Assembly: GCA_947624685.1 (NCBI GenBank)
Contig: CANQLJ010000010.1
Location: 1 to 45,963, forward strand
Direction: 5' to 3'
DNA: 45,963 nucleotides
From: Candidatus Gastranaerophilales bacterium
GTDB taxonomy: Bacteria > Cyanobacteriota > Vampirovibrionia > Gastranaerophilales > Gastranaerophilaceae
The position numbers were made by a program, and so were the translations under genes. Positions 12,218 through 38,077 of this stretch are shown one piece after another; positions within the stretch are counted from its first letter, which is position 1, and each line of letters begins with the position of its first letter. A model generated the notes under the pieces. It made no database searches, had not been told where the DNA came from, and worked only from the letters and a program-made list of their open reading frames with translations.

Positions 12218-12245
12218 TAAAGTTTCCTTAAATACTACCCGTAAA
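12218..12245 (+). promoter_or_regulatory. Sigma-28 (FliA)-like promoter
   Basis: TAAAGTTT at 12218-12225 matches the flagellar sigma-28 -35 consensus exactly. After 11-12 nt comes ACCCGTAAA (12237-12245), matching 5 of 8 positions of GCCGATAA. It lies about 40 nt before the ATG at 12283. In an AT-rich genome the 8-mer also occurs by chance (a copy lies inside the 16S gene), so the call rests on position and context. Confidence 0.4.
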
Positions 12246-12282
12246 GACTAATATAAGGTGACAATGGAGGCTATGAACGAAT

Positions 12283-13356
12283 ATGGGTTTAGCAGCAAGT
12301 CAAGCAAGATTCCTGGGTTTAACAGCCAGAAAAAGTAATGTTGAATATCAAGGACAACAAGTCAATCAACAAAGAACCGGTTTGGCTAATGAAAGCGCGA
12401 ATTTGTACAATCAAATGATGAATTTGACAGTGCCGACGCCTCCTGCCACAAGCGATTATTACACAACGACTTACACTCTTGAAAATTCCGGTGACGGGGC
12501 TGACATTGGCGATTACAAAATGACCGCTATGCAAAAGACCTATGACCCAGAAAATCCTGGACAATACCTTGTCACATTGAGCTATGAACAAGGTGTGGTC
12601 GATGTTACAAACAATCAATATAAATTAACAAAATCGACAAAAACGGAAGGTGAAGAAGGAAAAAGCTCGTATAGTTTCCGTTTGAGCGAATTGAACAGCT
12701 CAAATAACGTCACATTGAATTATATCGAAGACCAAACAGACGCATACACAGGAAACAACGGCTCTTTAAATATTAACAGAAATCAAATTTATGAAATTAA
12801 CCCCGACAAAGAATTAGACGGGTTTGAAAAATGCCAGGAAGACAACAAAGGCATCGAATTGAAGTATTTCTATCAAGGAAATGACGGAAAAAATCATTTT
12901 CTTTCGCAAGATCAGCTTGATGCGATGAAAAATGATACAAAAGACGATGTTTTTGCTTTCAGCACGACTTATCAATATACAAAAGACGTCTCGACCCAAG
13001 TCAAAGCATATTTAGAGCAATCCGATTCCGGAAGATACAGCACAATTCAAATTGAAGACGGCGAAGAATATCCTGCGGAATTGAAAGGCAAGACTTTTTC
13101 TTTGAATATGTCGGAAGTCAAAGACGATAAAGCCTATGAAGAAGCATTAAACGACTATCAATATAATAAAGAACTCTATGAAAAGACAATTTCAGACTTA
13201 AATGCGCAAACGGAAGTTCTTCAAAAAGAAGACCAACAGCTTGAATTAAGGCTGAAACAGTTGGATACCGAACAAAACGCGATTACAACCGAAATGGAAT
13301 CCGTCACGAAAGTTCTTCAAGACAACGTCGAAAAAACATTTAACGTATTTGGCTAA
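12283..13356 (+). CDS. Coiled-coil protein with conserved GLAASQARFL N-terminus, possibly exported
   Basis: 357 residues, no Sec signal. It begins with an amphipathic helix (MGLAASQARFLGLTARKSN, then QVNQQRTGLANESANLYNQ), continues with a Thr/Asn/Tyr-rich, beta-like middle (about 60-270) and ends in a long coiled coil (about 275-350, DLNAQTEVLQKEDQQLELRL) closing with VEKTFNVFG. Helical ends around a variable middle is the plan of flagellar axial and type III-exported proteins; from memory this N-terminal motif recurs in gut Vampirovibrionia proteins of unknown role. A GGAGG site lies 12 nt before the ATG, and a TAAAGTTT promoter lies upstream. A link to the fliOPQR export gate in this window is inference. 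Gene certain, role unproven. Confidence 0.8.
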   Translation: MGLAASQARFLGLTARKSNVEYQGQQVNQQRTGLANESANLYNQMMNLTVPTPPATSDYYTTTYTLENSGDGADIGDYKMTAMQKTYDPENPGQYLVTLSYEQGVVDVTNNQYKLTKSTKTEGEEGKSSYSFRLSELNSSNNVTLNYIEDQTDAYTGNNGSLNINRNQIYEINPDKELDGFEKCQEDNKGIELKYFYQGNDGKNHFLSQDQLDAMKNDTKDDVFAFSTTYQYTKDVSTQVKAYLEQSDSGRYSTIQIEDGEEYPAELKGKTFSLNMSEVKDDKAYEEALNDYQYNKELYEKTISDLNAQTEVLQKEDQQLELRLKQLDTEQNAITTEMESVTKVLQDNVEKTFNVFG

Positions 13357-34089: not shown

Positions 34090-35415
34090 ATGCAAAAGAA
34101 TACAACAACAAATACATTTGAAAATAAGAATCTTGATAATTTCATCCCAAAAATTTGCGATGTGATAATAGAGGCGTGTCAAAGTTTTTGGGAAAAAGAT
34201 ATAAAAGCTCATGTTCTTGCGCTGAACGATTTTGAGGCATTAAGAAACGAAAAATTGGTCTATAGCGTGGATTTTTTCACAAGCCAAATAAAAGTCGAAA
34301 ACCATAAGCCCGTCGTAATCCGTCTCGCGAGGGAATTTATCGAAAATATTTTAGATTCGATATTAAAATCAAAAGGCGAAAAATTTGATTTAACAAAACT
34401 CACAGAGCTTGAAGTGCGCATATTAAACGCGTTTTGCGAGCTATTGTATAAAAAGTTAGATGAAATTTTAGTCGATACTAAAAACATCAAAACCAACGAA
34501 AAAAATATCAAAAACATCAATTTTGTTTTTTTGATAAACGATAACGAGAAAAACATCTCAAAAATCGTACTTTCCATACCAAGCGAAAGGATTAACTTTG
34601 AACCTTTAAAAAAAATTGTTGCATTTAATGATACCGATTTTTTGCAAATCAGCACGGAGGTTAAATTAAATCTCGGGAGTTCAAAAATCACATTTAACGA
34701 ACTCAATACCCTAATCAAAGGCGACATAATTGTCCTTGAAAACAGCAGTGCCAATAAAATGACTTTAACATCTGGAGATTATGAAAAAACATTTTCAACA
34801 AAAATAAAAGATTCCTTAATTAAAAAAATTGAAGATATAGAAATTGAAGATAATGACAATGAAAACATTACACAAAATTTTAACGAGGTAACAATGGATA
34901 AAAATGTGTGGGATGACATACAAATTGAGATAAATGCGGAATTTGAAAAAGTCAAAATGACTCTTGGCGAATTAAAACAAATCTCCCAAGGGCAAATTGT
35001 TGACTTAGGTTCAATATTAGAAAATGAAATATCTCTTTTTGTGGAAGATAAAAAAGTTGCAAAAGGCGAATTGATTATTATAAATGATAGATATGGGGTG
35101 AGGTTAAATGAAATTTATAATTCAAAACCTCAAAGCGCTCCAAAACCGATTTCTTCTCCTCAAGCCCAAAACTCCGCTCAAAAGCCCCAAGCAACCGCAG
35201 CTTCTGCTGCTGCCCAAAGAGCACAAACAGCAGCCCCAAGGGCACAAGGGGTACAAGGAACACAAGGGGCTTCCGCAGCAAGACCGATACCAAGACCCCA
35301 GGCAGCCCAAAAGCCCCAGGCAAACCCGGCTTCCGCTCCTCCAAGAACACAAGCAGCTCCCCCAAGGCCTAAACAAGAGGAAGAAGAGTTTGATTATTCG
35401 GATTTTGAAAAATAG
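34090..35415 (+). CDS. Double SpoA-domain FliM/FliN-like protein with Pro/Ala/Gln tail
   Basis: 441 residues. An N-terminal domain (about 1-170) without clear motifs; a first SpoA-like unit (about 180-240: VKLNLGSSKITFNELNTLIKGDIIVL); a second, more typical FliN/SpoA unit (about 277-342: IEINAEFEKVKMTLGELKQI, SQGQIVDLGS, VAKGELIIINDRYGVRLNE); then a disordered tail of about 95 residues rich in Pro, Ala and Gln, ending in an acidic EEEEFDYSDFEK patch. SpoA pairs build the C-ring or sorting platform below the export gate. FliM's phosphatase-like middle domain is not evident. It heads the cluster fliO-fliP-fliQ-fliR 46 nt downstream. Confidence 0.82.
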   Translation: MQKNTTTNTFENKNLDNFIPKICDVIIEACQSFWEKDIKAHVLALNDFEALRNEKLVYSVDFFTSQIKVENHKPVVIRLAREFIENILDSILKSKGEKFDLTKLTELEVRILNAFCELLYKKLDEILVDTKNIKTNEKNIKNINFVFLINDNEKNISKIVLSIPSERINFEPLKKIVAFNDTDFLQISTEVKLNLGSSKITFNELNTLIKGDIIVLENSSANKMTLTSGDYEKTFSTKIKDSLIKKIEDIEIEDNDNENITQNFNEVTMDKNVWDDIQIEINAEFEKVKMTLGELKQISQGQIVDLGSILENEISLFVEDKKVAKGELIIINDRYGVRLNEIYNSKPQSAPKPISSPQAQNSAQKPQATAASAAAQRAQTAAPRAQGVQGTQGASAARPIPRPQAAQKPQANPASAPPRTQAAPPRPKQEEEEFDYSDFEK

Positions 35416-35461: not shown

Positions 35462-36136
35462 ATGCTTACATATCTTACGGCTTTTATATTTTATACACTT
35501 GCAATGGTCGGGATTTTGCTTGTCGGTTTTATTGTCTATAAAAAAACCTTTGCAAGCGCGAAAAGCGAAAATAAAGGGCTCATAAAAATCGTCGACAGTC
35601 TTATGATTGCGCCAAAAAAAATGCTTCTTGTCGTAAAAATCAAAAACGAAAGATTTTTAATAGCATCGGGAGCCGAGCACACGACGTTTTTAGCTAAATT
35701 AAACAAAGGGCAAAATGAAAATGAAATTTCATTGAATGATTTAGTCGAAAATCAAAATAAAATTGCAAATTTCATTAATCCGCCAAAAGAAAAAAGAATT
35801 GACGAAGGATTAGAATCAATTCCTTTTTACAAAAGCGAAAACCAATATCAATATCAAAAAAACAATTTTCAAGATGAATTAAACGATATTGAAAATATCA
35901 AACGCGCAAAAGCTCTTGAAGCGCAAAGACAGTTTAAGGAACTGTATGAAAAAGAAGACGAAAATGAAAACGAAAAAGGAAATACAAACAACATATTAAA
36001 CAAAAAGACTCAAAAATATTCAAACAAAAAAGATTTATATAGAGAAATTCTAAAAACTCTAAACGCCAAAGAAAAAACAATGAATTACGACTATGAAAAC
36101 GATTATAACAAAATCAGAGTTGGGAGCAGATATTAA
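35462..36136 (+). CDS. fliO: FliO-like flagellar export protein
   Basis: 224 residues. One N-terminal membrane helix (about 5-28), then a small beta domain typical of FliO (GLIKIVDSLMIAPKKMLLVVKIKNERFLIASG and TTFLAKL), followed by a long charged cytoplasmic tail (about 90-224) rich in Glu, Asn and Lys. FliO helps assemble the FliP ring of the flagellar export gate. Position directly before fliP (2 nt gap) supports the call. FliO is weakly conserved, so the name relies partly on context. Confidence 0.85.
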   Translation: MLTYLTAFIFYTLAMVGILLVGFIVYKKTFASAKSENKGLIKIVDSLMIAPKKMLLVVKIKNERFLIASGAEHTTFLAKLNKGQNENEISLNDLVENQNKIANFINPPKEKRIDEGLESIPFYKSENQYQYQKNNFQDELNDIENIKRAKALEAQRQFKELYEKEDENENEKGNTNNILNKKTQKYSNKKDLYREILKTLNAKEKTMNYDYENDYNKIRVGSRY

Positions 36137-36138
36137 TA

Positions 36139-36780
36139 ATGGATAATCTTTTAAAAGACATAAATCCCGTCATACAGCTTCTTATCACAATGGCACTGTT
36201 TTCACTGTTGCCTTTTGTGTTTGTTTCAATGACACCTTTTTTAAGATTCACTATCGTTTTTTCGATGCTCAAAACCGCAATGGGAACAAATTCCGTTCCG
36301 CCTGCGATAACTTTAATCGGATTATCTTTGATATTAACTTTATACACGATGTCGCCCGTGTTTGATAATATGTATAAAGAATATCAAATTCCCTATCAAA
36401 AAAACCATAACGTAATTGAGGCGCTTGATGCAAGCTCGAAGCCTTTAAAAGAATATATGCTCAAACAAACCCGCCAGAGTGACCTTGCCTTTTTTGTCGA
36501 AAAAACAAGAGGAAGAGCTCCAAAAACTCCCGAAGAATTAACTATTTGGGAAGTTGCCCCCGGGTATATCGTTTCAGAATTAAAAACAGCGTTTGAAATA
36601 GGTTTTATAATCTATGTCCCTTTTATTGTGCTCGACCTTGTCGTTGCAAATATATTACTTGCCTTGGGGATGTTTATGCTATCTCCTCAAATTGTTTCAA
36701 CGCCTTTTAAACTTTTGATTTTTATCGCAGTCGACGGCTGGAGCCTTATTGTCAAAGGACTTGTGGAGAGCTTTAACTGA
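36139..36780 (+). CDS. fliP: Flagellar type III export gate protein FliP
   Basis: 213 residues. Core FliP features: MTPFLRFTIVFSMLKTAMGTNSVPP near residue 33, the PVFDNMYK segment, VAPGYIVSELKTAFEIGFIIYVPFIVLDLVVANILLALGM, then PQIVSTPFKLLIFIAVDGW. It starts directly with the first membrane region and lacks the cleavable signal peptide found in many FliP proteins. FliP, FliQ and FliR form the helical export channel. The stop codon overlaps the fliQ start (TGATG), so the two are translationally coupled. Confidence 0.96.
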   Translation: MDNLLKDINPVIQLLITMALFSLLPFVFVSMTPFLRFTIVFSMLKTAMGTNSVPPAITLIGLSLILTLYTMSPVFDNMYKEYQIPYQKNHNVIEALDASSKPLKEYMLKQTRQSDLAFFVEKTRGRAPKTPEELTIWEVAPGYIVSELKTAFEIGFIIYVPFIVLDLVVANILLALGMFMLSPQIVSTPFKLLIFIAVDGWSLIVKGLVESFN

Positions 36781-37277
36781 TGGAAGTTTTGGTAGAATAT
36801 TTAGGAAAAGGTTTTATGGTTATGCTTATGATTAGCATGCCTTGTGTCTTAATGGCGGCGCTTGTCGGGCTTGTTGTGGGGATTTTGCAAGCGGTAACTC
36901 AAGTACAAGAACAAACAATTGCCGCAGCACCAAAGATTGTCCTTGTGTTTTTAACAATCGTTGTATTGGGCGGGTATTTTATAAAAGTTTTAACAAACTA
37001 TATTTTTGAAGGAAGCCACATAGCTTTTGATGTGGTACCGAAAAACGATTCTTTTGTTTTACCAAATGACTATTATAAATACACTCGCCCTTTTGATTAT
37101 GAAATGAGAGATAAATTAAGAAAAAATAGCTCCCTTAATTCCGCTCTTAAAAACCACGGAGCGATACCTTGGGATAATAAAGCGACAAGAAAACAAATTT
37201 ATATCGATTCAAAGCAAAACGCCGTTAATGGGCCAAATTTCATTGAAAGAGCAAAAATTCAATCCAACAACAAATAA
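36780..37277 (+). CDS. fliQ: Flagellar export gate protein FliQ with C-terminal extension
   Basis: 165 residues, whereas FliQ is normally about 90. The first 85 residues are standard: two membrane helices with GLVVGILQAVTQVQEQTIAAAPKIVLVFLTIVVLGGYF. The remaining 75 residues form a hydrophilic, Asn/Lys/Tyr-rich segment (PNDYYKYTRPFDYEMRDKL ... NHGAIPWDNKATRKQ) with no domain I know. Base composition does not change across the junction and no frameshift is needed. The gene lies between fliP (1-nt overlap) and fliR. Confidence 0.94.
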   Translation: MEVLVEYLGKGFMVMLMISMPCVLMAALVGLVVGILQAVTQVQEQTIAAAPKIVLVFLTIVVLGGYFIKVLTNYIFEGSHIAFDVVPKNDSFVLPNDYYKYTRPFDYEMRDKLRKNSSLNSALKNHGAIPWDNKATRKQIYIDSKQNAVNGPNFIERAKIQSNNK

Positions 37278-37297: not shown

Positions 37298-38077
37298 TTG
37301 GATGAAATTTTAAAAGAATTTGCACTATATTTCCCCGAGCTCAACAACGCTCTTGGCGCGGGGATTATGATATTTTTGCGCCTTGTGGGGTTGATGAGGC
37401 TCGCTCCCGTGCTATCTAAAAGCGAAGTTCCGGCGCTTGTAAGGCTATCTTTTGCTCTTATTACAACGGTAATTCTGGTGGGCGTGATAAACCCCGCCCC
37501 GCCCGCTCCCAATACTCCGATATACCTTTGTATGGCTCTTAATTTCATCTTCGGGATGATTATAGGTTATGTTGCAAATTGTATCCTGGCTGCAATCTTA
37601 GCCGGCGGCGATATGATAAACACCCAAATGGGTTTATCATCTGCAATGATAATGGATCCGAGCTCTAAAAGCCAAATAAGCATTATGGCAAACTATTTTT
37701 CAGTCCTTGCGATGCTTGTTTTTATGTATTCCGGAGGGATTTATTGGCTTTTTAATGCGCTAATAAAGAGTTTTGAATTGTTTCCTATGTATAGCGTCGA
37801 TTTTCATTTTGAAAAAATAATAAATATTCAATATCTAAGCGACATTACGGCAAATGTCTTATTCTGCGGGCTTCATATAGCGGCACCGGTGTTGCTTGCA
37901 ACGTTAGCTCAAGATATAATCTTGGGGATAATATCAAAAACCGCCCCTCAAATAAATGTTTTTTCATTGAGCTTTCTTTTCAAACCGGTTATGGGAGCGT
38001 TTATTTTGATTGTAATTTTGCCGATGCTCATTAACGTCATAACGGACTATTTAGTGTCTTTTGCGAATATTTTTTGA
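37298..38077 (+). CDS. fliR: Flagellar export gate protein FliR
   Basis: 259 residues, full length, with about six membrane helices. Motifs: FLRLVGLMRLAPVLSKSEVPALVRLSFALI near residue 25, LNFIFGMIIGYVANCILAAILAGGDMINTQMGLSSA, ISIMANYFSVLAMLVFMYSGG, and the C-terminal GIISKTAPQINVFSLSFLFKPVMG. The start is TTG at 37298, with AAAAGGA just upstream. It overlaps the convergent BioY-like gene by 27 nt at its 3' end. flhB and flhA, which often follow, are absent here. Confidence 0.95.
   Translation: MDEILKEFALYFPELNNALGAGIMIFLRLVGLMRLAPVLSKSEVPALVRLSFALITTVILVGVINPAPPAPNTPIYLCMALNFIFGMIIGYVANCILAAILAGGDMINTQMGLSSAMIMDPSSKSQISIMANYFSVLAMLVFMYSGGIYWLFNALIKSFELFPMYSVDFHFEKIINIQYLSDITANVLFCGLHIAAPVLLATLAQDIILGIISKTAPQINVFSLSFLFKPVMGAFILIVILPMLINVITDYLVSFANIF

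Follow-up and report, generated by a model that had tools for sequence, protein, structure and literature searches.

A candidate axial-type substrate of a second, flagellum-derived export apparatus in Gastranaerophilales

Partial flagellar gene sets in Gastranaerophilales are read as flagellum loss in those parts of two earlier reports on which we draw (PMC4040986, PMC5877343), whereas in the present data the partial subset looks like a distinct second system with substrates of its own, coexisting with a true flagellum in other members of the group. In the open-licence literature on secretion or flagella of Gastranaerophilales, Melainabacteria and Vampirovibrio, we found no description of a second export system. 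The secretin-less type III secretion systems (T3SS) of Myxococcales are presented, in the portion of Abby and Rocha 2012 used here (PMC3459982), as descendants of a flagellum-injectisome intermediate. Set against that portion of their account, the second system (S2) appears similar in that both are secretion machines derived from the flagellum that lack flagellin and any known needle, and different in that it keeps rod-type FlgB/C, FlgE/F/G-D1 and FliE and is accompanied by an axial-like family of its own and by FliA; because S2 keeps rod genes, we have not filed it as a non-flagellar T3SS.

The gene studied here lies in a window of 45,963 nucleotides, the whole stretch of DNA that was analysed, and we consider it probable, though well short of certain, that it encodes an axial-type substrate of this non-flagellar, flagellum-derived S2 apparatus. 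Its family resembles flagellin, FlgL, FliD, FlgE and FlgG in the conservation of both terminal helices, in the variable middle, in the lack of a Sec signal and in its co-occurrence with an FlhA/FliPQR gate, and shares a sigma-28-type promoter with flagellin; it is unlike flagellin in that it gives no match to PF00669, is present in 124 genomes without flagellin and has members from 107 aa upwards. The EspA filament and the SctF needle are built of helical-hairpin subunits, and injectisomes have hydrophobic translocators. The family recalls EspA and SctF in its helical-hairpin subunits and in a weakly hydrophobic neighbour gene, but there is no sequence or specific structural match to either, the fold matches of the 107-aa hairpin being unspecific.

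The window gene, its family and their predicted architecture

The open reading frame at 12283-13356 of the forward strand encodes 357 aa and is preceded by a ribosome-binding site, GGAGG (12266-12270, +), 12 bases 5' of the start codon; a GGAG-type site also lies upstream of many of its relatives. The protein has no significant match to a Pfam, NCBIfam or PHROGs family, and with Pfam at E values up to 10 nothing comes near the cut-off, flagellin PF00669 included. As the first-pass annotation had proposed, no Sec signal is apparent: the peak 19-residue Kyte-Doolittle mean across the whole protein is 0.14. The annotation had also described a conserved N-terminus, a variable middle and a coiled-coil C-terminus, and the same plan is seen in the paralogues and in the 69 rows of our alignment A2, which holds 69 of 76 references (window included) and is restricted to proteins of 300-440 aa from named loci. 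By family comparison and predicted model, residues 2-46 (12286-12420, +) form the conserved N-terminal helix; a beta-rich variable middle takes up about residues 60-280 (12460-13122, +), as judged from the paralogues and the model; and the alignment, a profile of short members and the model place the conserved C-terminal helix at residues 282-356 (13126-13350, +).

The genome from which the window comes, of 2.0 Mb in 92 contigs, was found to hold five family members, the window gene included; three of the others are of similar plan (contigs C17, C25 and C68) and one is short (C2). Members have in common about 45 residues at the N-terminus (MGLAASQARFLxLTARKSNxEYxGQQIN) and about 70 at the C-terminus, while the middle differs between them in length and sequence. 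The family is large and was previously without a name; for the 80 of 468 relatives that were listed, the labels read Gastranaerophilales, Melainabacteria, Cyanobacteria, Galligastranaerophilus or unnamed bacteria. None of the 69 members of A2 matches the flagellin profile PF00669, and the four Pfam matches among them, to unrelated coiled-coil or other families, were taken as chance. Against PDB sequences the family profile found no SctF needle subunit or EspA; its one chain (E 0.18) was likewise taken as chance.

Members range from 107 to 772 aa, and frames of up to 1053 residues bear the N-terminal motif. By matches to the N-terminus, the genomes of a 24-genome panel hold 2 to 20 copies each, the highest number, 20, being that of G252, where frames reach 1053 residues. 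This abundance, the very different middles and lengths and the scattering of the genes over different contigs would suit soluble effectors or adhesins that form no polymer and have in common a signal for secretion and a tail that binds a chaperone or shaft. We regard that explanation as unlikely: the C-terminal helix is as conserved as the N-terminus and a bare hairpin exists, whereas both would not be needed for a signal alone, and the architecture is flagellin-like.

The shortest members clarify what is constant in the family. A profile made from the ~107-aa members hits the long proteins in two stretches only, one at each end, so that the short form corresponds to the family core without the inserted domain. 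Most genomes of taxonomic family f1 in a 22-genome panel have one close copy of it each. Matches in families f6, f11 and f12 are forms of ~110 aa. This suggests an ancestral hairpin and a later insertion of the beta domains, in Gastranaerophilales.

An AlphaFold2 model computed from the 69 rows (mean pLDDT 93.4, pTM 0.62) consists of a helix at residues 2-46, a beta-rich middle and a helix at 282-356, so that the arrangement characteristic of axial proteins, in which the two terminal helices pair and a variable domain lies between them, is present in the prediction. Foldseek returned nothing for this model at E 0.001. After re-alignment with VIA-align, flagellar axial proteins (FliD, FliC of several species, FlgL, FlgE and FlgG) made up 22 of the 26 rows with Z of at least 5.8, the best Z being 9.3; these values are modest and within the reach of long helices by chance, and the tool warns about helical models. 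The predicted fold thus resembles FlgL, flagellin and FliD, as would be expected of the axial-protein plan first proposed, and was not of an unrelated kind. Given the modest Z and the warning, we read the likeness as agreement in plan, common descent staying unproven; the absence of sequence similarity to any axial family counts against the axial reading.

The 107-aa member is predicted to be a two-helix hairpin (pLDDT 86.3), and its model resembles many coiled coils, including YscO (4mh6) and the coiled coil of IpaB. An identification from this fold was rejected, as 470 of 952 chains reach Z of at least 8 and the matches are ordinary coiled coils. The same resemblance, together with a weak profile match to EscO (E 0.13) and the single close short-form copy in most f1 panel genomes, would be expected if the short members were export factors like FliJ or YscO, coiled coils of the cytoplasm of which the long members are elaborations, the family being part of the machine and not its cargo. 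With hairpin matches so unspecific, we think this very improbable; we know of no FliJ or YscO protein with a large beta domain between its helices, with many paralogues or with late sigma-28-type promoters.

Sigma-28-like promoters of the family genes

Upstream of the window gene, at 12218-12244 on the forward strand, an exact match to a sigma-28-like promoter is formed by TAAAGTTT (12218-12225), an 11-base spacer and ACCCGTAA (12237-12244); the first element begins 65 bases 5' of the start codon, and CCCGTAA follows it. The Salmonella FliA site is given, in the part of the source used here, as TAAAGTTT-N11-GCCGATAA (PMC4866697). Within the window alone this match could be due to chance, since the two-part motif occurs once and 23 of 100 shuffles contain at least one; TAAAGTTT itself is not enriched there, with 6 matches against 7.68 expected. 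The significance of the promoter comes instead from its conservation among relatives.

Upstream regions of family genes were reduced from 193 to 158 by dropping identical sequences and to 120 by dropping similar ones. Among the 158 distinct upstreams, 48 contain TAAAGTTT exactly, mostly 60-75 bases before the start, while shuffling gave a mean of 3.55 and a maximum of 8 over 100 rounds. The second element is approximately G/C-C/T-C-G-A/T, and some genes carry the full GCCGATAA. The exact two-part motif is found in 26 of the 120 clustered upstreams against 5 of 730 control open reading frames; when up to one mismatch is allowed, these numbers become 46 and 11, three of the latter being family members themselves. 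The motif is limited to members of 150-500 aa (1 of 15 short members, 0 of 7 very long ones). By these sequence matches, the sigma-28-like promoter proposed earlier for the window gene appears conserved across the family, which would give it the late-class sigma-28-type promoter that is a feature of axial proteins.

Two control frames with the exact two-part motif are candidate exported proteins in their own right: one of 931 aa without a Pfam match (L049:9665-12460) and one of 525 aa with weak EF-hand matches (L082:2643-4220).

The sigma factor itself, FliA, scored above the NCBI cut-off in 26 of 28 panel genomes, the two misses being genomes without FlhA, and sigma-28 is kept in the 10 family-positive genomes inspected that lack flagellin and FlgH. 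In flagellin-less genomes, 12 of 28 family genes examined have the exact motif.

A second export gate and the distribution of the family

We surveyed 289 genomes of the class to which Gastranaerophilales belong, from which panels of 20-28 were chosen non-randomly to cover all families. The protein family was found in 211, an FlhA-type domain in 235, flagellin in 96, rod domains in 229 and FlgH in 90; the family scan scored at most six candidates per genome, so that paralogues cannot be counted from its matches. The suspected tie to an export gate agrees with this distribution: every one of the 211 family-positive genomes has an FlhA-type domain, and the family occurs in 211 of the 235 genomes with that domain and in none of the 54 without. 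No family-positive genome lacking any export gate was seen; the qualification concerns G088, with S2 FlhA in fragments, and G197, with none, both of which are family-positive and keep FliP. An assembly gap or decay may account for the lack of an intact S2 FlhA in these two. In 24 genomes (f7, f8 and f9) FlhA is present and the family was not found; these genomes, like G088 and G197, count against reading the family as an S2 substrate.

Flagellin accompanies the family in 87 of the 211 genomes. The other 124, all in f1, have neither flagellin nor FlgH by profile and nevertheless retain the family, which means that the protein outlives the flagellum; the gut relatives of cyanobacteria probably kept S2 even where flagella were lost.

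The first-pass annotation had placed the gene alongside a flagellar-type export gate in the same window. The gate genes are indeed there by profile: fliO (35462-36136; PF04347, 3e-9), fliP (36139-36780; PF00813, 6e-66), fliQ (36780-37277; PF01313, 7e-20) and fliR (37298-38077; PF01311, 1.4e-51), all on the forward strand. The two SpoA proteins it had listed proved to be a single protein of 441 aa with two FliMN_C (SpoA) stretches (34090-35415, +; PF01052, 1.8e-22), which, from its position beside fliOPQR, is probably the C-ring or sorting protein of S2. The gate is not that of the flagellum. Seven flagellin-less panel genomes carry a single FliP each, and the window FliP groups with these, scoring 323-414 bits against them and 181 bits against the flagellar FliP of its own genome; on this sequence grouping the window gate belongs to S2. 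Since S2 is the gate that flagellin-less genomes keep, we prefer to connect the protein with a non-flagellar apparatus.

Two full-length types of FlhA occur in the family-positive genomes of the 28-genome panel, one (853-885 bits) in genomes with flagellin and the other (695-729 bits) both in flagellated genomes and in those lacking flagellin, G088 and G197 excepted. In a tree of 36 FlhA rows, which has no fixed root and drew a warning of long branches meeting, the S2 type forms one clade across f1, f3, f6 and f11 (11 rows, SH-aLRT 100), apart from the flagellar clade (17 rows) and sister to seven rows of f7, f8 and f9. The pattern in these sequences looks like long-standing vertical descent of a second system. 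The seven sister rows come from genomes without the family, which counts against the axial S2 reading.

Both systems are present in the window's own genome: the flagellar one has a fliP-Q-R-flhB-flhA cluster on C3 and genes for rod, ring and hook-filament on C11 (names on these two contigs being assigned partly by eye), and S2 has its flhA operon on C19; FlgF/G-, FlgH-, FlgI-, FlgK- and FlgL-like genes and flagellin are all found. Pooled across several genomes, the S2 core comprises FlhA, FliF, FliH, an FliI-type ATPase, FlhB2, FliPQR and SpoA. The S2 operon of G253 contains FlgB/FlgC-type rod genes, two FlgE/F/G-D1 proteins, a lytic transglycosylase, FliE, FliF, FlhA, an FliI-type ATPase and, by position, an FliH-like gene, and that of the flagellin-less G053 contains FliE, FliF, FliH and FlhA. 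S2 keeps, in the FlgB/FlgC-type rod genes and FliE of G253, genes that are usually counted as flagellum-specific. The flagellin-less f1 genomes listed have 1-4 rod matches each, with the exception of three that have none.

Several further proteins were noticed. Between FliF and FliH, at the position of FliG, lies a protein of 319-340 aa (L127:6832-7848, L128:6479-7501, L178:7065-8024, L169:5548-6528), with no clear Pfam match in the two scanned (L127 and L178), as if the rotor function had been lost. In the window's genome a 670-aa SLH-domain protein, which we take to be of the sort found in outer membranes of atypical diderms, adjoins the S2 operon on C19 (L169:10186-12198). A 483-aa protein on C28 of that genome (L170:8227-9675, minus strand) matches only the cytoplasmic half of FlhA (PF00771 positions 321-656); stand-alone matches of this kind occur in other f1-f4 genomes too, and the protein may be an extra platform on which export substrates dock.

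In flagellated genomes, the window's included, the protein might instead be exported by the flagellum and decorate, cap or replace flagellin, with S2 uninvolved. Sigma-28 is the late flagellar sigma factor, the window genome has a flagellum with flagellar FlhA-FlhB-FliPQR and flagellin, and at one locus a relative of the window gene is convergent to FlgL- and FlgK-like genes (L042:7209-9688), the only flagellar neighbours that we noticed. We give this explanation little credence, in view of the 124 of 211 genomes that keep the family without flagellin or FlgH, of the sigma-28-like promoters in 12 of the 28 genes, and of the fact that some family genes adjoin S2 genes. The axial S2 reading, in which the family would use S2 over the flagellum even in flagellated genomes, remains the one we prefer.

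Neighbouring genes and a possible role

The proximity of some family genes to S2 flhA or flhB2 counts in favour of the axial S2 reading. In eight f1 genomes a family gene lies about 9-12 kb from S2 flhA, and since these genomes come from few genera the linkage may be one event. At four loci (L043, L044, L046 and L106) an flhB of the second type (PF01312, 1e-112 in L106) stands before a gene closely related to that of the window.

Of the 78 named loci that leave space downstream, 33 have a conserved partner gene (MSYKNDSYLVI..., 270-314 aa over all loci) no more than 311 bases 3' of the family gene, which we also count in favour of the axial S2 reading. The partner is glycine- and alanine-rich (for example L049:7304-8119 and about 50 other loci) and of moderate hydrophobicity, with 19-residue means of up to 1.54. 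It gave no Pfam family and no PDB match, one of 19 members at 0.0047 being taken as chance; on position and composition it is translocator-like. Families f6 and f12 have this pair too, with the 109-aa form as the family gene. In the examined stretches of the window's own genome the partner was not found, and the gene directly 3' of the window gene is dnaX. Directly before the short member, loci of f1, f2 and f3 have a gene of 85-92 residues, without a Pfam match at L220:1824-2093 (minus strand) and like loci, which is possibly a chaperone. Injectisomes have gene blocks of needle, translocator and chaperone, and the order of family gene, partner, small gene and short member recalls such a block by analogy.

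Taking the axial S2 reading as a basis, we envisage that sigma-28 (FliA) would transcribe the window gene late and that the protein, having no Sec signal, would pass out of the cell in an unfolded state by way of the FliPQR-FlhB2-FlhA2 gate. Once outside, its N- and C-terminal helices would pack together as in flagellin, FlgL and FlgE, leaving the beta domain exposed. Most probably these helices would polymerise, or else dock, to give a filament, a needle or a structure at the rod tip, whose surface face would be the variable middle. The 107-aa hairpin member could then be the smallest structural subunit, and the longer paralogues would be decorated or specialised ones.

A more far-reaching and tentative idea, possible but to be doubted, is that the whole is an old contact-dependent delivery machine, carried by non-photosynthetic relatives of cyanobacteria that include the Gastranaerophilales of animal guts: a flagellum-derived, rod-bearing, flagellin-less basal body crowned by the hairpin family as needle or filament, with the glycine-rich partner as translocator and sigma-28 as regulator. 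If true, an injectisome-like system would have been invented independently in the cyanobacterial lineage.

The 'incomplete flagella' of the non-photosynthetic gut relatives of cyanobacteria are thereby reread as a separate export system with a large substrate family. If this is right, it would represent a second conversion of a flagellum to secretion beside the injectisome, and would give a first starting point for asking in what way these bacteria, which are known here almost solely from metagenome bins, may contact or affect host or neighbouring cells.
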